46,467 nt of DNA from a virus. The stretch lies in the IMG/VR virus record IMGVR_UViG_3300045921_000220, positions 1-46,467 of that record. One strand, given 5' to 3'. Position 1 is the stretch's first letter; each line of letters begins with the position of its first letter. The notes under the pieces are model-generated. The model did not search any database, was not told where the DNA came from, and worked only from the letters and a program-made list of their open reading frames with translations. A program made the translations under genes and the position numbers. Positions 10,187 to 46,467 of the stretch are shown here, in pieces.

Positions 10187-10231
10187 GCTGACACTGTTTA
10201 GGCGTCCGCATTTTTTGACATACAAGTGCTG

Positions 10232-12603: not shown

Positions 12604-13100
12604 CTACCAACTCTTCGTCAATCCCGTCATTACGTTCGGATACACCGGGGCCGTAACTACTTTGTTTAGAGTCACTTGCGTCCAGATGGAATAGTTGTGT
12701 GGTAGCTTATATATCGTTCCGGCGCTGTAGCCAGAATAGAATCGCCACGCCACATCTTTTCCGCCTGTGATGCCCGTCGTACCGGCTTGCACCCATAGAT
12801 GGTGAGTTTCGGATGCACGTCGAAGTTCCGCATGACGCCCACCGCCGGGGTGTGACATCCACCGTTACCCGTGGGCCAGAAACCGGAACCACAGTTCTCA
12901 TAGGTGTAGCCGACCGTGAGTTCGTTGATGAATTTGTTGCCCTTCAACTTGTCCGGCAAGTAGCCGTATCCGATGTTGAAAGAGGATTTCGCCGCAAGGC
13001 CGGGTCTGAAGAAGCTGGACCCGGCCATGACGAACAAATCGTTTTTCGTCTGGCCGAACATCGACGCGACGAAAAGTAGTGATGTGATGAGTAAACGCAT
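12604..13100 (-). pseudogene. outer-membrane beta-barrel-like protein, frameshifted
   Basis: The N-terminal frame (from 13100, MRLLITSLLFVASMFGQ signal peptide) encodes amphipathic strands such as FINELTVGYTYENCG up to DVHPKLTIYG near 12790. The -1 frame then continues the barrel (VQAGTTGITGGKDVAW ... YSIWTQVTL) and ends in W at 12604, like an outer-membrane protein C-terminus. The shift falls at a GGG run. In the single frame the product would end with a basic non-barrel tail at 12672. It could be a sequencing indel, a decayed gene or programmed slippage. Confidence 0.65.
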
Positions 13101-25465: not shown

Positions 25466-26941
25466 CTACCATTTCATATCATCCTTGCCGCCCGTCAATT
25501 TGGAAATGATCTGCATTCCGCGTGTGAACCGGGCTTGAAATTTTTGCTCAGAATCCGTTTCGGCATCTTCGGGATTCATGCGCAAGGTCGCCTTCTTTTG
25601 CTCATACTTGGCGATGGATACGTCACTGTTATGGATGTCGGCTTGCGCTTCGTCTTCCGCTTCAAAGAGCATCATCCGGGCCTTGTCCACGCCGATGATG
25701 AACGGATTGCCAAGGGTACCGTAGCGATTCTTCAAAACCTTGACCTTCAGTTTCTTCATCGTCTTGTACTCTTCGGTTTCGATCAGAGCGAAGAAGAAAT
25801 CCGCCGTGAACGGAAGGCCGAACGATTCGGACGTATCAGTCAGATCCACATCCACATCGTTGAAGCCACCCCGGTTCACCTGAGTCGCGGAGAAAATCGG
25901 CACGTCGAATTCCACGGCCAGTCCGCGAACCTCTTCCGCAATAGCCTTGACGTAGCTATACGACGATTCAATGCTCTTATAGCGCTGACTGGCACAGATG
26001 TTCAGATAGTCAACCATGATGACATCCGGCTTGAACTTTTGCTTCAACAGCAACTCATTCAACAGCGCGCGGAAATGACCCACATGGGCCGATGATGTCG
26101 GAAATTCCCGAATGACCAGATGACTCTTGTACTGTTCTTGCATCTTGGCAAGTTCAGCAAGGTAATCGTCTTTTGACATCTCCCGCAAATCTTCACGGGT
26201 CATCCGCAACAGGTTTTCGTCGATACGTTCACCAACTGCCTTCTCCGAAAGTTCCAGCGTGATGTACAAGACGTTTTTGCCCATCTTCAGGCAATGCGCG
26301 GCATGGTGGCAGAGGAACAGCGACTTACCGACACCGGTGCCCGCCATGACGATGTTGAGTGTCTTGGACGGCACACCACCATCCGTCACTCGATTGAAGT
26401 TTCCGATATTGAAAGGCAGCTTAGCTTCTTTCAGGTGGTAGCTGTCATACCGATCAGCCGCTTCATCGAAGTAACGGTGACCGATTTTATTGTCGAAACT
26501 GATAGCCAGCGCTTCGGATAGCATGCCGGGAATCTTGCCACGATCATGCCCGGCTTTGTCTTCCAGAATCTCCACCGCCTTGAGAACAGCATTCGCGATG
26601 GCCTGATCCTTACACCATTTTTCAGTGGTGTCCAGCATCCATTTCAGTTGGACAGGTTCCGCCTTCGGAATCTCGTTTTCCAATTCGCCAACGACTTCCA
26701 TGCAATCGGCGAACTCTTTCCCATCCATCCCGCGCTGACTGAAATTCAGGCGAATGACTTCCGTGGAAGGGGAATGGTTGTACTCTTGAATGTGTTTCGA
26801 CGCGGTTTCATATACCAACCGTTCGGCCTTGTCGTCGAAGTAGTCGGGTCGAAGAAACGGAGTCACTTTCCGCATAAACTCTTCATTTCTAAAGAGTTCA
26901 CGCAAAATGAGTGGTTCCACACGTGTAGGGCTAATGCTCAT
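25466..26941 (-). CDS. replicative DNA helicase, DnaB/T4 gp41-like
   Basis: Hexameric 5'-3' helicase. A helical N-terminal domain (about 1-170) precedes a RecA-like domain with Walker A GTGVGKS (201-207), and a Walker B region ending IMVDYLN near 310. The arginine-finger/H4 region is near FSATQVNRGG. Length 491 aa fits gp41. It partners the gp61-like primase. It overlaps none of its neighbours but lies in the minus-strand replication cluster. Confidence 0.93.
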   Translation of the reverse strand: MSISPTRVEPLILRELFRNEEFMRKVTPFLRPDYFDDKAERLVYETASKHIQEYNHSPSTEVIRLNFSQRGMDGKEFADCMEVVGELENEIPKAEPVQLKWMLDTTEKWCKDQAIANAVLKAVEILEDKAGHDRGKIPGMLSEALAISFDNKIGHRYFDEAADRYDSYHLKEAKLPFNIGNFNRVTDGGVPSKTLNIVMAGTGVGKSLFLCHHAAHCLKMGKNVLYITLELSEKAVGERIDENLLRMTREDLREMSKDDYLAELAKMQEQYKSHLVIREFPTSSAHVGHFRALLNELLLKQKFKPDVIMVDYLNICASQRYKSIESSYSYVKAIAEEVRGLAVEFDVPIFSATQVNRGGFNDVDVDLTDTSESFGLPFTADFFFALIETEEYKTMKKLKVKVLKNRYGTLGNPFIIGVDKARMMLFEAEDEAQADIHNSDVSIAKYEQKKATLRMNPEDAETDSEQKFQARFTRGMQIISKLTGGKDDMKW

Positions 26942-26977
26942 TGGCCTCTTCTATGGGATGTTTTTGCCGGTGGCTTC

Positions 26978-27349
26978 TTAGTGATCGATCCGCTCAAACG
27001 GAGGAAGCCCGGCGGCGGCGACACGCATTTGTTCCTGATCGTATCGCCGCTGTAGCTTATCGTTTGCCATCGAAAGACATTCGTCCATCGTGATTCCGAA
27101 TAGCGTGCAAACGCCATTCATCACTGTCAGGATATCGCCTACTTCACCCTTCACATTTTCGATATTGCCCGTCGCCACGTCAGGACGGTATTTCCGTCCG
27201 AAGTAGGATCGAATGGCCCCGGACAATTCACCGCTCTCTTCCAAAAGAAGACCCATCAAACGGGCCAACGAATCTTTGTCGAAGGTACGGTCGGGGAAAC
27301 TTTTCTTGGAAATTTCAATAGCCCGATCAATTGTCTCTTGGCGAATCAT
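26978..27349 (-). CDS. MazG-like nucleotide pyrophosphohydrolase (123 aa)
   Basis: Starts MIRQETIDRAIEIS. Contains the LLEESGEL (ExxE) and GEVGDILTVMNGV (ExxD) metal motifs of the all-alpha NTP pyrophosphohydrolase superfamily. It hydrolyses NTPs to NMPs; MazG-type enzymes have also been linked to (p)ppGpp control in phages. The start at 27349 shares ATGA with the stop of the adjacent DUF550-type gene, indicating coupled translation. The longer frame from 27508 is rejected. Confidence 0.82.
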   Translation of the reverse strand: MIRQETIDRAIEISKKSFPDRTFDKDSLARLMGLLLEESGELSGAIRSYFGRKYRPDVATGNIENVKGEVGDILTVMNGVCTLFGITMDECLSMANDKLQRRYDQEQMRVAAAGLPPFERIDH

Positions 27350-27648
27350 GTGCGAATGTGCTCCGATGGTTCGTCTTCCGATGTGGGCGGCGCATATCGG
27401 CGACTCATATTTTTCGCTTGCTTGGCGATCAGGTCCCGCATCAGGGTTTCCGGGGTTCCACCATGTCGCCAGTAGCCATCCATAGCAAGAATCATCACAT
27501 CGATCCATTCGGACAAGTCGCGCGGATTCTCCCGCACTTCATTGATCTCTTTTTCGATGTGCTTGGTGATCCCGCCCGTGCGCTGGCCGGGACCAAATGT
27601 TGCTTCAGACCAGACTTGTTGCCGTTCCAGATATTCTTCGAGGGTCAT
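27346..27648 (-). CDS. dATP/dGTP pyrophosphohydrolase-like (DUF550/MazZ type)
   Basis: Contains FGPGQRTGGITKHIEKEINE and LSEWIDVMILAMDG, matching the DUF550 family to which MazZ of 2-aminoadenine phages belongs. Predicted to hydrolyse dATP or dGTP to the monophosphate. No PurZ- or DatZ-like gene is seen in this window. Two different pyrophosphohydrolases are thus adjacent and coupled. Confidence 0.78.
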   Translation of the reverse strand: MTLEEYLERQQVWSEATFGPGQRTGGITKHIEKEINEVRENPRDLSEWIDVMILAMDGYWRHGGTPETLMRDLIAKQAKNMSRRYAPPTSEDEPSEHIRT

Positions 27649-28043
27649 TCAACTACTTCTCCATGCGGACGCGCGTCCCCGATTTCGTACTGGACTTCGA
27701 CGGTTCCATCATCATGCGTGATTGTTTCGCCCGGCTCTAGCACATTTGCCATCGTGCGTTCGTACAGGTTGAGAATGATCCGGCCAACATGTAGCTGGAA
27801 GGTCTGGTCTTTCTCCAATTCATCCGATGGGCCGGTAGGTGATTCGAGGATGTCGTATTCGAAATCCATCTTCATCTCTTCGGTCCCTTCAACACCCGTC
27901 AAATGGAAGGTCTTTGGTGCAATCACGGTTCCGGCAAATGGTGCTTGCCGGAACCGGATGCAGTAGTTACCCGCCGCCATTGAAGGATGTTCGACGACTT
28001 CGTAAGCGTCGTCGTAATTCTCAAAGGCGCGGTCGTTACTCAT
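27645..28043 (-). CDS. hypothetical beta-rich protein (132 aa)
   Basis: The start at 28043 (MSNDRAFENYDDAY) is preferred over 28076, which lies inside the UvsX gene. Contains strands such as GNYCIRFRQAPFAG and LHVGRIILNLYERT. It overlaps UvsX by 8 nt and the DUF550-type gene by 4 nt, so it is part of one translational unit. No family recognised. Confidence 0.7.
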   Translation of the reverse strand: MSNDRAFENYDDAYEVVEHPSMAAGNYCIRFRQAPFAGTVIAPKTFHLTGVEGTEEMKMDFEYDILESPTGPSDELEKDQTFQLHVGRIILNLYERTMANVLEPGETITHDDGTVEVQYEIGDARPHGEVVE

Positions 28044-29259
28044 TTTCAGGTGCTTCCTCTTCTTCTTCACCCACAACCGCTTCGATTTCCACTTCGTCCG
28101 GCCTTGCCAGCCGACCCTTGAAAGTGAACTCCGCGATACAGGCTTCTTCCAGTTTAGCCATCACTTCATCGGTGAAATACTGTTCGGGATTTGTGTTGAT
28201 GGCGCTGACAAAACCCTTGGCACCAGTCGGGAAATGCACATAGTTGCCTTCCTTCTTCAAAATGCCGTGCTTCAGACCAAACTCCACCAAACCGAAATAC
28301 GGCAACAGTCCGCGCCGGTGATCCAGATAGACTTCGATCTCCTTGCCGTCGCGCGTGAACCGGCCCTTCTTCAGTTTCACCTTGACGATGTTGGCGACCA
28401 CATCCTTAGCCTTCTTTTCAGCCGCTCCACCCACCGCATCCTTCGCAGTGAATTCCTTGGTCGCTACGTCCTTGTGACCTTCTTTCAGCCGCCGGTTGTC
28501 CAGTTCGATCACCACCGAAGCGGCGTAGACCAGACCATCGCCGCCCGCCATGTTCTTCGTCGGCACGTATGCGCCCGGCACGTCGTAGGTGTGGTTCGTG
28601 AACAGGAAAGGCACTTGAGCCTGACGCAAGGGATAGGTCAGGATGCGCATAGCGCCGCGCAAGAGTTGTGCGCGGGTCATGTCACGGGCCTGTTTGCCTT
28701 CCAAGGCGTCCGTGACTTCCTTAGTCGTCGAAAGCATGCCAGCGGAGTCGAGCACGACGAAACAGGGCACAGCGTTGTCTTCCTTGCGATAGGCCGCGAT
28801 GAAGTTGGAAAGCTGATGCTTGAGTTCTTCGACAGTGTTCAGCGGAACGATGATACAGCGTTCCGTGTCGATGTCCCACTCTTCGAGCATTTCCTTGTAG
28901 ACCGCGCCTTCCGTTTCGACATACAGGACGTAGCCGTCCGGGTTCTTGTCGAGGAAGCGCTTGACTGCTGTCAATGCGAAATAGGTCTTGCCGGTGGACG
29001 GCGCGCCCGCCAGCGCGGTGATGTGGTTGCCGGGGAAGCCACCACGCATCGAACCGCTGATGAGTGCGTTCAAGAGATAGCATCCGGTATCAATGAACCC
29101 ATTGGTCAACCCGGAGTGATGTTCAGCACTTGCCGGGGCAGCAAGCGGGTTCTTCATGATTTCGCCTAGCTTGGAAAACAGCCCGGCGGCTTTCTTCGCC
29201 TTGGCTTTCTTGTCGGCTTTGCGTTGCTCGTTTTCTTCAGTTCCTTTCTTCTTTGCCAT
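28036..29259 (-). CDS. uvsX: UvsX-like RecA recombinase
   Basis: Strand-exchange protein for recombination-dependent replication. The lysine-rich N-terminus is followed by Walker A GAPSTGKT (85-92), a Walker B-like region FVVLDSAGML near 170, and an L2-like loop region before residue 215 (FTNHTYDVPG). The acidic C-terminal tail (VGEEEEEAPENE) is typical. GGAG precedes the start. 407 aa is close to T4 UvsX (391). Confidence 0.9.
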   Translation of the reverse strand: MAKKKGTEENEQRKADKKAKAKKAAGLFSKLGEIMKNPLAAPASAEHHSGLTNGFIDTGCYLLNALISGSMRGGFPGNHITALAGAPSTGKTYFALTAVKRFLDKNPDGYVLYVETEGAVYKEMLEEWDIDTERCIIVPLNTVEELKHQLSNFIAAYRKEDNAVPCFVVLDSAGMLSTTKEVTDALEGKQARDMTRAQLLRGAMRILTYPLRQAQVPFLFTNHTYDVPGAYVPTKNMAGGDGLVYAASVVIELDNRRLKEGHKDVATKEFTAKDAVGGAAEKKAKDVVANIVKVKLKKGRFTRDGKEIEVYLDHRRGLLPYFGLVEFGLKHGILKKEGNYVHFPTGAKGFVSAINTNPEQYFTDEVMAKLEEACIAEFTFKGRLARPDEVEIEAVVGEEEEEAPENE

Positions 29260-29358
29260 GTGATTTGTCTCCTAGTGTAGCCTTGAATCGGCTGATCGGA
29301 ATTCGGAATCATTTAGCATCCGAACCCTCAAAAATCAGCGGGTCGCTATATAACCGCC

Positions 29359-31947
29359 CTACGAAAAAAGGTCAGCTATATTGGCTTTTTTGACCAATTT
29401 CCATTCCGCCGCGTCCGCGATCCGGGACATGGGTTCAAGGAAATTCTTCTCATACAAGGCTTCCCGATCCACATACTTGTCCAGCCCGAATTCGGGCGGG
29501 AGATTACCAACGAACCCAATCACATTCTGATCCGTGGGATTGGGCATCTTGAGATAGGCCAACTTGATCTTGTCCCCTTCGAGGATCGGCGGGTAGATGG
29601 ATTCCAGTCCCTTTTCCTGAATCAAGTGGTTGTGCCACAGTGCCGCGCGGACATGTTGCGGACAACCGTGGGCCGTCACTGAGCGCGGGTCCATGTACTT
29701 CTCTTTGAATTCTTTCACGCCTTTGGGCTTTGCAATATCCTCAATCGGCAATGACATGAACTCCTGATAGTACTTCTGAACGTACTCATACAGTTCCTCT
29801 TGCGTCCCATGCATGATGTACTCACAGCACTTCATCATCGCGATCCGGCACGTCTTCGGCGTGTCCGACCGCTTCATTTCCAGTCCGGTGTACTTCAGCT
29901 TGGGCTTGTCGTACCGAATGCCTTCCTTGTCCCAAATGGACAGCACATAGCGCTTCTTCTTCGTCCAGATGCCCTTCTCCGCGATGACTTCCCTCTTCAT
30001 GGCAAGGTAGTTGCCGTTTCCGTGGATGAACACGTCGCGGATCTCCGCGAAGATCCGGTCAATCTCCGGTTCGATGATCTTCTTGCAAACCTTGTCAATG
30101 TAGTCAACGATCTTCTTCGGGTCCTTCTCATTCGGAAGATACTTTTGGACCATCGGTTCAAGGTTGATGTAATTCGAGTCCGTGTCCGCCGCGATGACAT
30201 AGTTGAAATCCACCGTCCCGAAACTCTTGTTCAGGAAGCGATTCAACGACTGCTCCACGTACTGAATCACGAACTGACCGGTGACCGTGATGGCTTCCGC
30301 GTTCTCCGTGTCATAGAACCGGAAAAACTCGTTTCCCACACATCCATAGAGACTGTTGTTCAGGACCTTCGTCATCTTCTGTTTCAAGTCGAACTCACTC
30401 TTCGTGTAGTCCAGTTCGGTGTAGCGCCGCTTCAACTCCGGGTCGTCCGGCGTCTCTTTCAGCTTGCGCTTGATCTCTTCGAGTTCCTTTTCCGACGATT
30501 CGGCGATCTTGCGGAATTCCTTACGGGCCGCAAGCAACTCAATAATCATCGTGGTGAAAATGGAGTTCTTGCCCTTGTCATAGGTCGCCCCGTTCGATCC
30601 CATCGAAATGTTCAATCCTTCGAACAATGACCAATCCGGCGGGCCTTGCAACATGCGATGCGCGTTCATGCTGTCCACGATTTTCCGTTGCGCGGGTTCC
30701 CACATGTCCCGGTCAATCTTGGTTTCGACACCGATGTTCAATGCCGCGATCAACGACGGGTACAGGGAGTTCACGTCGAAGCTGACCACCCACTTGTACA
30801 GCTTGGGCACCGGCTCTTTGACGAAGGCCCCTTCGTACTGTGTATCCTTGTCGTCCACTTCCCGGAAGGGCACCACAATGTTCCTGTCGCGAAGGTGGTT
30901 GTAGATGGCAGCATCCCATGTACGGACTTGGCTCATCACGTCTTCCATGTTGACCTTCGAGCGATAGGCGACCAGCATTTGCAGATCGATGATGCGCTTC
31001 TTCGCTTCCAGCCGATCCACCAAGCGAACGTCATGCACGTTGTATTCGATGAACTTCTGGTGGTTCTTCTGGTACATCTGCCACAGGTTGCGGTATTCGG
31101 AGTAGTCGAGTTTGCGTTCGCCCAACTCAATTTCCGCCACGTAGTCCAGCCGGTAGGATTCCAGCGGTTCCAGCACATTCTTCCGATACAGTTCCCGGTA
31201 GTCAAGGTTGTTCACACCGGCGATGGAATAGCTGATGTACTCCGAATCAAACCGGCGCAACGTGATCTGACGGATCTGACCGAAAGGCGACAGCTTGGCG
31301 GCGCGTTTCTTATCGAGTCGCTTGGTGATCCGGTTTACCAGATAAGGGATATCGTAGCCGGTGATGTTCCAGCCGGTCATGCCGTCCGGGTAGGTTTCAA
31401 TCCACGCGGCCAAGAACTGTTCGAGCAAGTCGCCTTCGTCATCACATTGAATGTAATTGATCTCTTCGGTCGGCATGAATTCTTTCACACCAAACACCCG
31501 GAACTTGTTCTCATTGGACAGCTTCAACACGATAGCCGTCACTTCTTCCGGTGTATCCACGGTGTTCAGAGCCGACAGGAATCCATTCTTTGCCCCGACT
31601 TCGATATCGACGTTGGCGATGACGATCTGTTTTGGATCGTATTCAACATGACCGGGATAGTTTTCGGCGATGTGAACATACTGATACATGTCGTTGCCGT
31701 ACAACGTGTATCCATCAACGCCCGTTGACTCCTGAATGTGTCGCCGGGCGGCACTCATGGAGTCAAAATGAAGAGGGACGACGCCGCGACCTTCCAGCGT
31801 GGTCAGTTCGTAAGGTTCGCCGGGCGGGGCGGGTGTATAGAGCGTTGGCTTGTGGTTGACTCGAAAATTCTTTCGCTCTCCATCCCTCACTTCCCGCACC
31901 AAAATTTCGTCGCGATGCCGTCCGACCCATGTATAGAAAGGTTGCAC
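29359..31947 (-). CDS. family-B DNA polymerase, T4 gp43-like
   Basis: Replicative polymerase with proofreading. Exonuclease motifs: VDIEVG near residue 113, GWNITGYDIPYL near 194, YNVHDVRLVDR near 300. Polymerase motifs: SFDVNSLYPSL (A, near 392), KVLNNSLYG (B, near 528) and AADTDSNYI (C, near 585; most family-B enzymes have Tyr-Gly or Ile before DTDS). 862 residues is close to gp43 (898). Start is GTG. The last residues (ADLFS) resemble a clamp-binding tail. Confidence 0.95.
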   Translation of the reverse strand: MQPFYTWVGRHRDEILVREVRDGERKNFRVNHKPTLYTPAPPGEPYELTTLEGRGVVPLHFDSMSAARRHIQESTGVDGYTLYGNDMYQYVHIAENYPGHVEYDPKQIVIANVDIEVGAKNGFLSALNTVDTPEEVTAIVLKLSNENKFRVFGVKEFMPTEEINYIQCDDEGDLLEQFLAAWIETYPDGMTGWNITGYDIPYLVNRITKRLDKKRAAKLSPFGQIRQITLRRFDSEYISYSIAGVNNLDYRELYRKNVLEPLESYRLDYVAEIELGERKLDYSEYRNLWQMYQKNHQKFIEYNVHDVRLVDRLEAKKRIIDLQMLVAYRSKVNMEDVMSQVRTWDAAIYNHLRDRNIVVPFREVDDKDTQYEGAFVKEPVPKLYKWVVSFDVNSLYPSLIAALNIGVETKIDRDMWEPAQRKIVDSMNAHRMLQGPPDWSLFEGLNISMGSNGATYDKGKNSIFTTMIIELLAARKEFRKIAESSEKELEEIKRKLKETPDDPELKRRYTELDYTKSEFDLKQKMTKVLNNSLYGCVGNEFFRFYDTENAEAITVTGQFVIQYVEQSLNRFLNKSFGTVDFNYVIAADTDSNYINLEPMVQKYLPNEKDPKKIVDYIDKVCKKIIEPEIDRIFAEIRDVFIHGNGNYLAMKREVIAEKGIWTKKKRYVLSIWDKEGIRYDKPKLKYTGLEMKRSDTPKTCRIAMMKCCEYIMHGTQEELYEYVQKYYQEFMSLPIEDIAKPKGVKEFKEKYMDPRSVTAHGCPQHVRAALWHNHLIQEKGLESIYPPILEGDKIKLAYLKMPNPTDQNVIGFVGNLPPEFGLDKYVDREALYEKNFLEPMSRIADAAEWKLVKKANIADLFS

Positions 31948-31992
31948 GTTTCCAATTTACCGTGAGCCTGACCACTCATAAACTAGAAACAG

Positions 31993-32541
31993 ATGACACG
32001 AATTTACTGCGACATGGACGGAGTGCTTTGCTACTTCGATAAACGAGCATGCGACAAGTGGGGGTTCAAACCGGACGGTTCGGGATGGTACGACATTGAA
32101 GACCACCACTGGAAGATGATCGAATACGACACCGATTTTTGGGCGCACATGGAATGGCAACCCGGCGGGAAAGAACTGTGGGACGCGATCAGTTCGATGA
32201 ATCCGTGGATCTTAAGCGCCTACAACAAAGAGGTCATGCAATCCACTATCATCGGCAAACTCGAATGGGTCCGGCGGGAATTGCAAATTCCTGACTGGAA
32301 GGTCAAAGTCTGTATGCGGGAAGACAAATTCCACTTCGCCCGCAATCTGGACGGAACGCGGAACATCCTGATCGACGACAATCAAAACAACGTGCGTGAA
32401 TGGTCGCGCGCGGGCGGGGTTGCTGTCTATCACAAAAACAACCCCGAAGCGACCATTCACATCATGAATTCCATCAAAGAAGGCAAAATCTCAATGGAAT
32501 ATGCCGCTGTTTGGAGTGAGATTGGAACGCTTCCGGCCTAG
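31993..32541 (+). CDS. HAD-superfamily phosphatase (182 aa)
   Basis: Motif I DMDGVL (residues 7-12) with both catalytic Asp, motif II region WILSAYN, and motif IV ILIDDNQNNVREW near 122. It resembles the 5'-nucleotidase (NT5C/YfbR-like) branch of HAD enzymes, which could recycle nucleotides. It is one of the few plus-strand genes. A possible promoter TTTACC-17-TAAACT ends just before the start. Confidence 0.82.
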   Translation: MTRIYCDMDGVLCYFDKRACDKWGFKPDGSGWYDIEDHHWKMIEYDTDFWAHMEWQPGGKELWDAISSMNPWILSAYNKEVMQSTIIGKLEWVRRELQIPDWKVKVCMREDKFHFARNLDGTRNILIDDNQNNVREWSRAGGVAVYHKNNPEATIHIMNSIKEGKISMEYAAVWSEIGTLPA

Positions 32542-33203
32542 TCGTCGCCGGACGGCAACAGCTTGTTGGTGGACAGCGTTAGCAACGTCTGGTCGATTTT
32601 CTCCGGGCGGACCAGATCGACCAGCTTCTCCCGGAGAATGTCAATCCGCTTCGTGAACTCTTCGAGCGCCGCCCGGTTGACCTTGTTCGCCGGAATGCAT
32701 GCTGTCACATTTCCCCGTTTGTCTTTGAACTCACCCGGCCACGGTTCAATCACTTCTCCACGACCGTAGCGATATTGCTTCAGCAACAGGGTGCCGTCGA
32801 ACGCGGTGCCCTTCCACACCGTCTCATAACCGAACGACAGTCCAGTCCCCATGCCTTCATAGGGCGCGCGGTGATCGATACTGACAAGGTAGTACTCTTC
32901 CCACCCGACCTTATAGTGATCGTCCAGTTCGCCCCACATCGTCGCCCGGAGCGATTCGATGTCCGGGCCGGTGAAAGAGAACTCCGGGTTCTCACACGTC
33001 ACTTCGAACCAGACTTCCTTCGTCGCCAGCGGCGGCGTGTCCCCTTTGAACTTCTTGAGGATGTAGACCTTGATCGGAACCTTGATCGGCTTGACTTCAG
33101 GTTCCGCTTCCGGGTCGTCGCTTTGATGTGCCGGGATGCCGCTGTATTCGTACCACCATGTATCGATCAGCTTGCCGTTCGACTGGCTACGCGACTTTGC
33201 CAT
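32538..33203 (-). CDS. hypothetical protein (221 aa)
   Basis: Starts MAKSRSQSNGKLIDTWW; beta-rich middle (KVYILKKFKGDTPPL, WFEVTCENPEFSF) and helical C-terminus (LEEFTKRIDILREKL). It overlaps the convergent HAD gene by 4 nt and the small upstream gene by 17 nt. Family not recognised. Confidence 0.75.
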   Translation of the reverse strand: MAKSRSQSNGKLIDTWWYEYSGIPAHQSDDPEAEPEVKPIKVPIKVYILKKFKGDTPPLATKEVWFEVTCENPEFSFTGPDIESLRATMWGELDDHYKVGWEEYYLVSIDHRAPYEGMGTGLSFGYETVWKGTAFDGTLLLKQYRYGRGEVIEPWPGEFKDKRGNVTACIPANKVNRAALEEFTKRIDILREKLVDLVRPEKIDQTLLTLSTNKLLPSGDD

Positions 33204-33363
33204 GTTTCCTTCTCTCCCGCGCCGCGATTCTTTTCTTCAGCGACGTGATCTTTCCGTCAATGAGCGCGAACGTGGTCCGCACCCACCGGCGATCTTCCAT
33301 TGACAAGAGCCGGGACATGTCCCGCTCACAAATAGCTAACTGCTCTTCCAGCCGTTTCGCCAT
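33187..33363 (-). CDS. small basic protein (58 aa)
   Basis: ATG at 33363 overlaps the stop of the preceding gene (TAATG). It encodes MAKRLEEQLAICERDMSR followed by a helical, strongly basic C-terminus (LIDGKITSLKKRIAARERR), a likely coiled coil. It ends at 33187 within the next gene. The compact stop/start overlaps on both sides support it as real. Confidence 0.6.
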   Translation of the reverse strand: MAKRLEEQLAICERDMSRLLSMEDRRWVRTTFALIDGKITSLKKRIAARERRKHGKVA

Positions 33364-33611
33364 TACGCGGCCTTTCCCGCCAGCCGTTCATCCGCCGCCG
33401 GATACTTCCCGCGCAAATACGAAACAGCATCGCCCATGATGATGAACGACGCCGTGTGTTTATATCGGATCGCAGTGGGCGGATCATCATCACCAACGCC
33501 AATGGAATGCTCTTCCATGACTTGTACGTCTCCGACCTTGGCGAATCCGAAGCCGGGTGTATACGACGTGGTAAAGGCGACTTTGCGCCCATTGAGCCAG
33601 AATTCCTTCAT
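33363..33611 (-). CDS. hypothetical protein (82 aa)
   Basis: The start at 33611 (MKEFWLNGRKVAFTT) is chosen over 33632. Beta-rich (VGDVQVMEEHSIGVG), with an alanine-rich end. It is the first gene of a short minus-strand group after a TTGACATATAGGT element (33645-33650). Function unknown. Confidence 0.65.
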   Translation of the reverse strand: MKEFWLNGRKVAFTTSYTPGFGFAKVGDVQVMEEHSIGVGDDDPPTAIRYKHTASFIIMGDAVSYLRGKYPAADERLAGKAA

Positions 33612-33621
33612 AGAACTACCA

Positions 33622-33650
33622 TGATGACACACCCGTCACCTATATGTCAA
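33622..33650 (-). promoter_or_regulatory. sigma70-like promoter, weak -10
   Basis: TTGACATATAGGTG (the shared early-promoter string) with a poor -10 (TCATCA) at 17-nt spacing, just upstream of the 82-aa gene. Confidence 0.4.
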
Positions 33651-34120
33651 CCTTGATAACGGATGTGCTTCTTGATGTCGTCCTGATGATGGAAGAAGAA
33701 CTCAACGATGCCGGGATGGAAGTTCTTGATGTTCGCGTCCAGCCGGGCACAGAACTGAATCCATGACATCCACTCCATTCGCGTGTGTTCTTGCGCGAAC
33801 TCGAAGTCCTTTGGATGAAACGAGAATTCTTCTGGCACCAATCCAATGAAGTTGTGAAAGATGAGTTTTTCGGATTCGTAGACGTAAGAAGGGATCAGTT
33901 TGACCGGCCCTTCGTAGCCCGTCTCTTCGACCAACTCCCGGCGCGCTGATTGCTCCGGTGTCTCACCCTCATCCATACCGCCGCCGGGCAGTCCCCAAAC
34001 GTTTCCAAAGTCAGATCCCGGCGCGCGCCAAAGAAAACACATCCGCTGTGTCTTCACGCAAATGGGAAGAACGCCAGCGGCTTCATTCGGCTGTTTCGTA
34101 ATGGTGCTGAAAGACGGCAT
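33647..34120 (-). CDS. Nudix hydrolase (157 aa)
   Basis: The Nudix box starts at GGGMDEGETPEQ (near residue 45) and ends RRELVEETGY, with all catalytic Glu residues present. The preceding GNVWGLPGGG is typical of Nudix folds. The substrate is not deducible; such phage enzymes act on nucleotide sugars, ADP-ribose, ApnN or oxidised dNTPs. It starts at the stop of the 79-aa gene (TGATG overlap). Confidence 0.9.
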   Translation of the reverse strand: MPSFSTITKQPNEAAGVLPICVKTQRMCFLWRAPGSDFGNVWGLPGGGMDEGETPEQSARRELVEETGYEGPVKLIPSYVYESEKLIFHNFIGLVPEEFSFHPKDFEFAQEHTRMEWMSWIQFCARLDANIKNFHPGIVEFFFHHQDDIKKHIRYQG

Positions 34121-34359
34121 CAGTCCACGTCCGTATCATCCAGTTCAATCATCGGCGGCTGCAATTCATCCGCACAGCGCGTCAGCGCATAGGCCATGTC
34201 GCGCGCACCTTCCGGCGACAAACACAATGCCAGATTCTTTTCGGCCAAGTATACAACTACTTGATAACCGGCCCCGTCTTGGAAGTCCACCGTACCGATG
34301 TGGAATTTGAAATTCTTGAGTGTGGAATCGATTTCTTGCTCTAGGTTGTGCGACATCAC
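34120..34359 (-). CDS. hypothetical protein (79 aa)
   Basis: Starts MMSHNLEQEIDSTLKNF; a beta-hairpin (FQDGAGYQVVVYLAEK), helix (SPEGARDMAYALTRCADEL) and acidic tail. Coupled to the Nudix gene. Family not recognised. Confidence 0.7.
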   Translation of the reverse strand: MMSHNLEQEIDSTLKNFKFHIGTVDFQDGAGYQVVVYLAEKNLALCLSPEGARDMAYALTRCADELQPPMIELDDTDVD

Positions 34360-34377
34360 AAACTAGTTAGACACCAC

Positions 34378-34857
34378 TCAAGTCCATAGATCCATGCGGA
34401 TACTCATCAGTCGATTCAACATCGCTTCGTCTTCCATGTCGTAAGCGACTTCCTGTTCCGCCGTTTCGATATCAGGCCGGGCCGGGCGGGTGACGGTCCA
34501 CCATAGGTACAGTTCTTTGGCAATACGGCCACATTCAACTTGATGCGGCGGTCCATCATTCATCAGACCGGCACACCAATCCAGATAGATCAATCCGTCT
34601 TTTGCCGACCGGCGACCGGGCATATTTTCCGACCGCTGATGTTCCCATGCGCAATCGTGTTCGACGAAATCGACCAGCGCCGCGAACGACCCGTACAATA
34701 TACGTTCGCGGGCGTCATGGTAGCCGGGTTCCAGTCCGTAGCACCGAATCTCATGAAGACGACGGAGCCGGTATACGATCCATTGAAAAAACGGACGGCA
34801 CCGCTTTGGTAAGCAGTGCCGCACGAATCGAACGACATCGATGAGTTTGTTTCTCAA
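34378..34857 (-). CDS. conserved phage hypothetical protein (159 aa)
   Basis: I choose the TTG at 34857, which overlaps the stop of the 42-aa membrane gene (TTGA) and has AAGGA upstream. The alternative GTG at 35037 would add 60 residues of implausible composition read through the membrane gene in another frame. The sequence (MRNKLIDVVRFVRHCL) contains YHDARERILYGSFAALVDF and LIYLDWCAGLMND, a pattern I associate with unknown proteins of large phages. Confidence 0.65.
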   Translation of the reverse strand: MRNKLIDVVRFVRHCLPKRCRPFFQWIVYRLRRLHEIRCYGLEPGYHDARERILYGSFAALVDFVEHDCAWEHQRSENMPGRRSAKDGLIYLDWCAGLMNDGPPHQVECGRIAKELYLWWTVTRPARPDIETAEQEVAYDMEDEAMLNRLMSIRMDLWT

Positions 34858-34982
34858 CTTGATTTGTCCTTCAGTTGCATGTAGACGAAGATGGCCCCGA
34901 AGACAATCGCGGTCAGAAACAACCCTGTCATGAGAACGGTGTTGTCGATCTTCAGATGATCCACCGATGGCCCATGCCGCAT
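34854..34982 (-). CDS. single-pass membrane protein (42 aa)
   Basis: ATG at 34982 encodes a charged N-terminus (MRHGPSVDHLKIDN) and one clear transmembrane helix (VLMTGLFLTAIVFGAIFVYM), then KDKSS. Stop at 34854. It is coupled to the 159-aa gene by a TTGA overlap. A short membrane partner of the next protein is plausible. Confidence 0.6.
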   Translation of the reverse strand: MRHGPSVDHLKIDNTVLMTGLFLTAIVFGAIFVYMQLKDKSS

Positions 34983-35033
34983 CCGCACAGACCCACGACA
35001 GACCCGCAATCTCTCCGACGACGACCCGCTTGT

Positions 35034-36159
35034 TCACGCGGCTTCCCGAAGTAGCGCCGGGGTGGAACGCTTGCGGATGTCATAGATCGACGGCTTGTTC
35101 AGACTGTCGCCGTCAAGGAAGATGGGCTTGATGACGTTGCCGGGGATTTCCGCTTCGCCGATGCGCACCGTGCTGAAACTGTCGCCGTTGGCGATCAGCG
35201 CCAGCCGTCCGCGCTTCGATCCCTTGCCGCGTGCGGCCTTGAAGACATCGATCTCTTCATCGCCGATCAAAGCACGGGAGCATTTCAGAGCCATCGACAT
35301 CGTATCGCGATCCACCTTCTGAAGAAGACCGCCGCCCATGCCGAACACGATGTTGTCAGCGGACCAGCCTTCGGCCTTGAGTGCCTGAAGGATCGGTTCG
35401 ATGGTCAGTGAAGTGATGCCGTCGCCTTGCAGGACGCGGATTTGCGGCGGGAGGACCTTGTACCCCTTCGCGTTCGTTTCCATGCCGTAGCGGGCTTCCA
35501 GCGACCGGAAAATGGCAATCAGGGTCGGGATGACTTCCCCGGAGTCGGGCCGGATCACAACACGTCCGTTACGGTTCAGCACCTTGTCCTTGAGTTCCTG
35601 TCCCCAAATCTTGTCCACGGCGTTGAAGATGTCCCACGAATCGCTGACGACGCTGACGATGCCGGTGGGATACTTCTCCAGCATATTGGCGTAGGCATCG
35701 CGTTCGCCTTTCTGTCCCCACGTGGTCATCGTGCTGTGTTCCGACGCGGCCACACTGAATGCCGGGTAGTCTTCGAAGTTCGCGTCGTACCACTGGAACA
35801 GGAAGTCAATGGCTTCGAGCGTGTCGGTGCCTTTGAAATTGACCAAGTGTGCGGCCCCGCCGATCTCAGCGGTTTCGGTGGACGATGCGCCGCGCGCGCC
35901 GAAGTCGTGCAGCTTGAACCAAATCTCTTCCGGGGTTCCGGTTTCGATCAGGTACTTGAGAATGATGTCGCGACAGTAGCGGCTGAGCGACGCCACCATG
36001 ACCATCGAAAACACGGATGAGGCTGTTCCGTGGTTGACCAACTACGTCGAAACGATGCTCATGCGGGAATGGTACCCGTTAGGAATGAATCATCTTCGTT
36101 CCCGGTGGATACTGACCGAAGTGTCCTACCTTGTAGGAATCCGTCCGTCGTAAAATCAT
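35034..36159 (-). pseudogene. nampt: NAMPT (nicotinamide phosphoribosyltransferase), broken by deletion and inversion
   Basis: NAMPT makes NMN from nicotinamide. The true N-terminus is at 36159 (MILRRTDSYKVGHF...QYPPGTKMIHS) and stops at 36079-36081. About 95 residues are then missing. Next, 36000-36079 encodes TIENTDEAVPWLTNYVE and MLMREWYP on the PLUS strand, i.e. inverted. The C-terminal two thirds continues on the minus strand from VASLSRYC (35996) to 35034, with intact HDFGARG, HLVNFKGTDT, IRPDSG and FGMGGGLLQK. A downstream start at 36041 would give a 335-aa truncated product with a nonsense N-terminus. Confidence 0.85.
36000..36079 (+). other. inverted NAMPT segment (about 80 bp)
   Basis: Plus-strand frame reading TIENTDEAVPWLTN through REWYP matches the conserved NAMPT stretch (TVENTDPEC-WLTN-WYP in human). 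Its flanking gene parts lie on the minus strand. Repeats and palindromes sit at the edges: GGTACC and GGAATG on the right; ATGGT twice on the left. Confidence 0.8.
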
Positions 36160-36179: not shown

Positions 36180-37163
36180 TCAGAATGGTACGTCTTCGTC
36201 TGGTATTGCCGTGACGACAGATGCCAGCTTCCGCCGGGCTTCCGCCGCACGTTTCGCCGTCGTGTACTGTTCGTACACCATATTCCTTGCCGCCTGAAGC
36301 CTGTCCCACAAATGGCGATGTTCCGGGACAAGCGGAATCTCATCCGGGGTGGCATCCAAACTCACCCACCGCACATCCGCCAGATCATCACCGGCTTCCG
36401 GTGTGCCTTCGAACTCGAATGTGACATAAAACCCGGTACGGATCACATCCCCACTGTTGTGGTACCGCCAGTCAAGCACCCGGACCCGGCCAAGATAGTA
36501 CCAATCGTCAGGCCGGATCTTCAGGTGCATTTCTTCCATCGCTTCGCGGCTCAGATCCTCTTCATCAGATTCGCTGGTGACTTCGGTGAAACCGCCCATG
36601 AACCGCCATGCGGTTTCATTGTGTTTACGTCCTAGCAAAGTTTCATTGCCCCGGATGATCGCACCATCCACAGTCGAAATGACTTTCTTGTAGGTGTGGT
36701 TCGCGGCGTAAATCACGCCTTTGCGAAAATCGGTTGTGTTGATGACTTTCAACCGAACTTCCGGCAAGAGGCGGGTGACGTTTGGCCCGGCCAATTCCGT
36801 CGTCTGCAATACGCCACCGGCATCTTTGTACATGGCGACGATTTCCGGGGCAGCATAGATCCGCGCGGACATCAGCGGAAAGGATTCCCGGATCTTACCT
36901 TCCAGCATGGAAACCCATTTCTTCGTGCTTGCCATGTCCATGAGCGGTGCGATGAACAGTTCCGGGAAGGCTTCATGAATCATCAGGCGGCGCATGACGT
37001 AGCTCAGCGGCTCTTCTCGGTTTCCGGGCACCGGGTTGGTAGACAGCAAAAGAATGGTGAACTGGTGATTGTCTTTCACCCGGCGCACCATGCTCTTGAA
37101 CTCATCATCCATTGACGGGATTTGGAATCTCCCGATGATTACCGCGACCGATTCTGTGCTCAC
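36180..37163 (-). CDS. NMN adenylyltransferase-like/Nudix bifunctional protein
   Basis: The N-terminal nucleotidyltransferase-like domain (about 1-170) begins VAVIIGRFQIPSMDDEF. The C-terminal Nudix domain (about 175-300) has GRKHNETAWRFMGG, then GGFTEVTSESDEEDLS and REAMEEMHL. In the NadM/Nudix family the first motif is GRFQPxHxGH; here the HxGH adenylylation motif is missing, so that activity may be lost. With NAMPT it would form the phage NAD-rebuilding pair (NARP2 type). The start is GTG; an upstream TATACT box would place the transcript start at the codon. Confidence 0.82.
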   Translation of the reverse strand: MSTESVAVIIGRFQIPSMDDEFKSMVRRVKDNHQFTILLLSTNPVPGNREEPLSYVMRRLMIHEAFPELFIAPLMDMASTKKWVSMLEGKIRESFPLMSARIYAAPEIVAMYKDAGGVLQTTELAGPNVTRLLPEVRLKVINTTDFRKGVIYAANHTYKKVISTVDGAIIRGNETLLGRKHNETAWRFMGGFTEVTSESDEEDLSREAMEEMHLKIRPDDWYYLGRVRVLDWRYHNSGDVIRTGFYVTFEFEGTPEAGDDLADVRWVSLDATPDEIPLVPEHRHLWDRLQAARNMVYEQYTTAKRAAEARRKLASVVTAIPDEDVPF

Positions 37164-45642: not shown

Positions 45643-46467
45643 TTACACCAGTTGGATCTGTGAGAAGTTCGCCCGTTTCACGAATTTGATCGTTCGATCA
45701 AACTTTTCGGCCAGCGCATCGGACTTGTGTGAGATAACGAACACGTGGGTTGTCTCTGCCAGTTCCGCCAACACCGTCATGAAAGCATCGATACCTGTCA
45801 CATCCAGACTGGAATCTACAACTTCATCGAGAATGAGCAAGTTCGTTGCCATACTGTTCTTCAGCCGGGAAACTTCCCTCCAACAGAACAAGATTGCCAA
45901 ATCGATGCGCAACTTTTCCCCTTCGGAGAAGGATGGATAGCTGAACTCATCCCTATGTCGCGCCTTGATCGTTTCGTTGAATGTTTCGTCTAAGCTAAAT
46001 TGTACCGGAAAATTCAGCGCGGAAAGGAACCGATTCACAACTTTGTTGATGACGGGCAGATATTGACGGATGATCGAAGTCTTTATCCCTCCATCTTTCA
46101 ACATGATAGCGGCCAAGTCTTGAAGTTGTTTGGTTTCCGCCAGATGCTTCCGCATGACCTCCAGTTCTTCTTCCCGGCGATGTAACTCTTCCAGCTTCCC
46201 TTCTTCCTTGGCGATCAGTGTGCTGTCCGTCTTCTGTATGTCAAGACTCAGCCGCCGGGATTCGATATTGAGCGTGTTTGATTCCGCCCGGCGCGCGGCG
46301 ATCTCCTGACGGATCGTCTGGATCTGTGCCCGGCACTCCGAAATTTCTTCCCGACGCTGTAAAAATGTCTTCTCCTTCTCTGTCAGCGCGGTATGACCAT
46401 CCTTCAGCTTCGCCAAAAAGGTCTTTTTGTCAGCAACCGCTTTGTCGCGAAAATCGGTTTGGATCGG
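45643..46467 (-). CDS. gp46/SbcC-like SMC ATPase, C-terminal part (gene runs off the window)
   Basis: The frame is open to the window edge (about 275 residues visible). A coiled coil (about the first 100) is followed by the C-terminal ATPase half: signature FSEGEKLR (ABC LSGGE-like), Walker B LLILDEVVDSSLD, and the H-loop VFVISHKSD. In T4, gp46 with gp47 (Mre11-like) resects DNA ends for recombination-dependent replication. The partner gene and Walker A half lie outside the window. Confidence 0.9.
   Translation of the reverse strand, partial: PIQTDFRDKAVADKKTFLAKLKDGHTALTEKEKTFLQRREEISECRAQIQTIRQEIAARRAESNTLNIESRRLSLDIQKTDSTLIAKEEGKLEELHRREEELEVMRKHLAETKQLQDLAAIMLKDGGIKTSIIRQYLPVINKVVNRFLSALNFPVQFSLDETFNETIKARHRDEFSYPSFSEGEKLRIDLAILFCWREVSRLKNSMATNLLILDEVVDSSLDVTGIDAFMTVLAELAETTHVFVISHKSDALAEKFDRTIKFVKRANFSQIQLV

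Follow-up and report, generated by a model that had tools for sequence, protein, structure and literature searches.

A phage NAMPT gene probably lost recently through a short in-place inversion coupled to a deletion

The window analyzed here (the whole 46,467-base viral record, from an uncultivated T4-like bacteriophage) contains a NAMPT gene that is interrupted by an 82-bp inverted fragment and has lost about 260 bp of its coding sequence. This is probably a recent loss-of-function allele of the local phage population, produced in one complex event for which we infer template switching. The allele amounts to a natural knockout in phage NAD+ salvage, and since a sister dataset contains the sister allele with the block unflipped, allele frequencies could be used to test what the gene is worth to the phage in the field. 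Loss of NAMPT through a short, template-switch-like rearrangement is ordinary in kind; the added interest lies in a second scar and in a second, different NAMPT loss.

Structure of the Interrupted NAMPT Gene

The intact 462-aa NAMPT of G003 (IMGVR_UViG_3300044641_007115, a 224-kb record with approximately 86% nucleotide identity to the window) served as the reference, and the NAMPT frame of G004 (3300042433_000146) is likewise open. In a tblastn search the G003 protein maps to the window in three pieces, far beyond chance, which supports the initial annotation in reading one NAMPT gene broken by an internal inversion and a deletion. The pieces, the junction between two of them and the gene upstream are:

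36082..36159, minus strand: NAMPT codons 1-26 (MILRRTDSYKVGHFGQYPPGTKMIHS), the 5' remnant (tblastn, 100% to G003 residues 1-26)
36080..36082, minus strand: CTA at junction A, a 3-bp insertion or the last bases of the ancestral codons TCC-TA(Y), with no microhomology to the inverted block
35998..36079, plus strand: inverted NAMPT block of 82 bp, codons 114-140 (TIENTDEAVPWLTNYVETMLMREWYP) (tblastn, 100%, residues 114-140 at 35998-36078; DNA comparison)
35034..35997, minus strand: NAMPT codons 143-462 and stop, the 3' remnant, in which the NAPRTase (PF04095) core is intact (tblastn, 95% to G003, 35996-35037)
36183..37163, minus strand: NMNAT-like/Nudix protein of 327 aa, the intact upstream partner (profiles detect the Nudix half only)

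The minus-strand start at 36159 had been placed correctly, since residues 1-26 run from 36159 to 36082 at full identity to G003. An in-frame TAA (36081-36079), created by the join, ends the N-terminal peptide after these 26 residues. The inversion does lie on the opposite strand as first described, but the block begins at 35998 rather than 36000 and is 82 rather than 80 bp long. The accompanying deletion, earlier put at about 95 codons, is present at a smaller size: codons 27-113 (approximately 87 codons, or 259-262 bp by comparison with G003) are missing, together with exactly 4 bp (ACAC) at the inner join, as seen by comparison with G002 (3300045902_000488). The order has thus changed from A - D - I - B to A - rc(I) - B, and the block sits no more than 4 bp from where it lay ancestrally. 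All 82 bases of the flipped block are identical, in reverse, to G002, where it has the ancestral orientation. Microhomology is 0 bp at both joins; at the inner one (GATGGTCAT/GGTGGCG) no base is in common with either continuation; the base preceding the block differs at the outer one. Automatic annotation takes an in-place inversion of this kind for a truncated gene on one strand and a spurious ORF on the other.

Relatives and the Ancestral Arrangement

A scan of viral contigs located four places that encode this NAMPT. The arrangement in G001 (3300045911_000181, 56.7 kb) is exactly that of the window, and exact searches with each junction matched G001 as the sole record besides the window. 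Over their 37,240-bp overlap the two differ by one SNP (window position 46340) and one T-run indel (window position 10216), and they are separate assemblies, since each reaches past the end of the other. At its end the window breaks off beside the SNP site at 46340, and its final 127 bases (46341-46467) are the first 127 of 3300045921_000118; this overlap points to neighboring contigs of a k=127 assembly, so that the window most likely belongs to dataset 3300045921. The independence of datasets 3300045911, 3300045921, and 3300045902 as samples is taken from their dataset numbers.

Over window positions 26067-36000 (9.9 kb), identity between G002 and the window is 99.9%. In G002 the 82-bp block stands in normal order, as do 145 bp of the stretch lost in the window, and this is therefore the ancestral state for the strain. 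The rest of the window frame is open and identical to this sister allele, in agreement with the earlier view that the damage is recent and the remaining gene intact. The NAMPT of G002 is itself truncated, in a different manner from that of the window: its first ~65 codons are gone, and at L003:4530/4531 the middle of NAMPT follows, out of frame, on the start of another strain's NMNAT gene (identity on the NMNAT side, 77-95%). Relative to G003, 986 bp are lost here, and the joined sequences may share as many as 8 bp (AAGTTTGT); no second contig with the NMNAT/NAMPT join was found, and recombination or chimera formation may lie behind it. Judged from sequence, both strain alleles seen (the window type and the G002 type) are probably non-functional, in different ways.

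Over these 9.9 kb the window and G002 show nine differences, six of them clustered within 33 bases (31527-31559) inside the DNA polymerase gene.

Mechanism of the Rearrangement

Short-range template-switch mutations follow the four-point model of Loytynoja and Goldman and were described in great-ape genomes, where the commonest types, 1-4-3-2 and 3-2-1-4, make inverted repeats (PMC7954356). The window scar resembles them in being a short, local, reverse-complemented segment between two switch points, here in the order 1-3-2-4, and differs in that ~350 bp were replaced by 82 bp and a phage gene was destroyed. The insert is the exact reverse complement of nearby ancestral sequence and replaces an ancestral interval. 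Replicative template switching during phage replication could produce this outcome if the nascent strand left its template at A, copied the opposite strand backwards across I, and returned at B. In one complex event the 82-bp fragment would thereby be set inverted into the gap, with ~260 bp missing at one end of it and 4 bp at the other. The presence nearby of a DNA polymerase gene of a family found in T4-like phages and of a UvsX-like recombinase gene suits recombination-dependent replication with strand switching.

Secondary structure may perhaps assist the switching. As a single strand the block is filled by two consecutive end-to-end hairpins (z -1.96 to -1.99), and an imperfect 9/10 inverted repeat has its outer edge exactly at the inner breakpoint, a coincidence noticed post hoc with a chance of ~1.5% per breakpoint. 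The wider ancestral stretch (146 nt) has a fold z of -0.02, so the hairpin support is limited to the block itself. A quasi-palindrome or microhomology at the switch points is common in template-switch mutations and is not required.

The initial annotation had also proposed a template switch, and this holds as the likeliest mechanism; the reason given for it, repeats and a GGTACC palindrome at the edges, does not, for these elements are not at the breakpoints and are no commoner than chance. The window contains 11 copies of GGTACC, with ~11 expected, and the copy concerned lies 3 bp inside the block. The 9-bp repeat GAATGGTAC lies away from any breakpoint.

The same real mutation might instead have arisen by double-strand breaks and end-joining, with three cuts, loss of a fragment of ~260 bp, and religation of the 82-bp fragment in reverse. 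The blunt joins fit this route as well as they fit template switching: homology is 0 bp at both, 4 bp are gone from one, and the other may have gained 3 bp (CTA). Other NAMPT-bearing phages encode ATP-dependent ligases, one of them annotated as LigD-like. Such a route needs three breaks within ~350 bp, however, and the inner breakpoint coincides with the base of a hairpin. Ku (PF02735) was not found in the window, G001, G003, G005, or G006, which speaks against Ku-based joining encoded by the phage, and the host would therefore have to supply it. End-joining is thus a possible but less probable origin and, given a real event, replicative switching is somewhat favored as the mechanism.

Natural Mutation or Artifact

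The scar is very probably a real and recent natural mutation rather than a laboratory artifact. In the typical chimera of multiple displacement amplification (MDA), a sequence is inverted and the stretch in between deleted, and 93.5% of inverted MDA joins between segments less than 10 kb apart show complementarity of 2 bp or more (PMC1855051). The window scar is alike in combining inversion with an intervening deletion, and several other window frames are shifted against G003, as might be expected of a chimera or a mis-assembly. Its joins nevertheless lack microhomology (0 bp at both) and are not private to one amplification: the identical two joins recur in 3300045911_000181 (G001), in a separate assembly that differs elsewhere, and two contigs with 37 kb in common are not expected from one de Bruijn assembly. 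As the joins recur, as no other flipped block occurs in the 46 kb of the window, and as the 82-bp block can be spanned by one short read, an in-vitro or assembly origin (MDA chimera, library chimera, or mis-assembly), which the initial annotation had left as an option, is improbable. Short in-place inversions do occur in phages, and what can set them apart from amplification chimeras is that they recur and that their joins lack microhomology.

Frame-shifting indels relative to G003 are present in three window genes, at 12795 (4 bp), 19600 (1 bp), and 5380 (1 bp), and may be real or assembly errors.

A Second Scar in the Same Lineage

A second flipped fragment inside a deletion lies outside the window, in G001. 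It measures 63 bp (G001:13993-14055, within locus L035, G001:13960-14060), is 93.7% identical to G003 in reverse, and adjoins a flipped 23-bp piece in a hairpin-forming stretch; a small gene is truncated and the next gene removed. This scar is present in three datasets, 3300045911, 3300045921 (100% over 3,985 bp), and 3300045902 (99.97% over 3,337 bp), and such events are therefore real in the lineage. If G002 and G006 represent one population, it is older than the NAMPT event.

Two in-place flips were thus found in ~98 kb of this strain. None was found in G002 versus G003 (14 kb) or in eleven pairs of isolated NAMPT-bearing phages, the most informative of which align over 28 kb at 84.7%, 26 kb at 86.4%, and 49 kb at 97.6%. 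Two flips versus zero are too few for a significant excess. A broader interpretation, which we regard as doubtful, is that the lineage repeatedly prunes accessory genes and leaves a short inverted fragment in the deletion, with NAMPT lost more than once locally, by inversion in two datasets and by another truncation in a third, under relaxed selection on NAD+ salvage where hosts lack NADase defenses.

Consequences for NAMPT Function

The intact NAMPT of G003 combines NAMPT_N (PF18127, E 2e-27) and NAPRTase (PF04095, E 6e-45) in one frame, and its residues 2-453 align with human and bacterial NAMPT chains in the PDB (e.g., 6tac, 2gvg, and 7yqo; E down to 1e-121). Compared with these structures, the window is without the equivalent of G003 residues 27-113, and the next 27 residues are on the wrong strand. 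The window ORF retains PF04095 alone, PF18127 is absent from it, and the pair that marks an intact Nampt does not occur in one frame; against NCBIfam NF006629 it scores 378 bits, under the cut-off of 405.

In human NAMPT, the TDSYK motif of the NAMPT_N domain is used for substrate binding. The largest ORF of the 3' remnant, of 335 aa, begins with a TTG (36041) that no evident ribosome-binding site precedes. Because the NAMPT_N domain is lost and this ORF has such a start, the window allele is, as far as can be read from its sequence, most probably null. With NAMPT knocked out, the phage would not be able to make NMN from nicotinamide with that gene. A search for a second NAMPT found only the one PF04095 copy in the 224-kb G003 and none in the other strain contigs searched (about half of the strain genome covered).

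Continued use of the remnant, with the 335-aa ORF or the fragments together making a working or regulatory protein, is very unlikely. The open NAPRTase core, which does not differ from the sister allele, speaks for such use, but an intact remainder is expected anyway if the event is recent, the TTG start lacks an evident ribosome-binding site, and the NAMPT_N domain with its TDSYK motif is detached. Programmed, reversible inversion of the segment (phase variation) can be practically dismissed: the 82-bp block does occur in both orientations among closely related genomes, but there are no terminal inverted repeats at its ends, both orientations were not seen within one dataset, and the flip is neither lossless nor simply reversible, because it is coupled to the loss of ~260 bp and 4 bp.

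The NAD+ Salvage Module

One form of phage NAD+ salvage is the NARP2 module, in which Nampt is paired with an NMN adenylyltransferase. The restoration of NAD+ in the face of NADase defenses is attributed to NARP2 (PMC12300627). The enzyme of NARP1, Namat, carries the signature GSX-Phi-X-Phi-X-Phi-TRD (PMC12774641). This signature is absent here; the window and G003 have a Nampt-type helix, GMGGGLLQKVDRD, which corresponds to GSGGGLLQKLTRD in the human enzyme, and by this motif and its PDB matches the G003 protein is a Nampt, not a Namat.

Directly upstream of the broken gene, the 327-aa partner has the synteny and a Nudix half, and the pair is a candidate NARP2 module. Its best NMNAT/Nudix model is PRK05379 (E 2e-5, over the Nudix part only). 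The N-terminus (GRFQIPSMDDEF) has no usual HxGH, and the NMNAT half is strongly diverged and without a profile match. Phage matches to the partner number only five; they are distant (28-33% identity), and most come from huge uncultured phages.

Similar modules of Nampt and NadM-type NMNAT/Nudix are found in Ruegeria phages DSS3P8 and V10, Phaeobacter phage MD18, and Rhizobium phages B1VFA and RHph_X66. As here, the NMNAT/Nudix gene in these phages lies immediately upstream of NAMPT, or almost so, on the same strand, and their NAMPT proteins are 44-49% identical to the one described here. Theirs are annotated as full length, whereas in the window NAMPT is interrupted and its partner has an NMNAT half too diverged to be picked up by profiles.

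In the relative G003, a PRPP-synthetase-like gene (PF14572; G003:176518-176850, locus L038), in a region outside the contigs of this strain, is possibly a supplier of substrate to NAMPT. Elsewhere in the window, 16 tRNA genes are clustered on the minus strand (47-3881).
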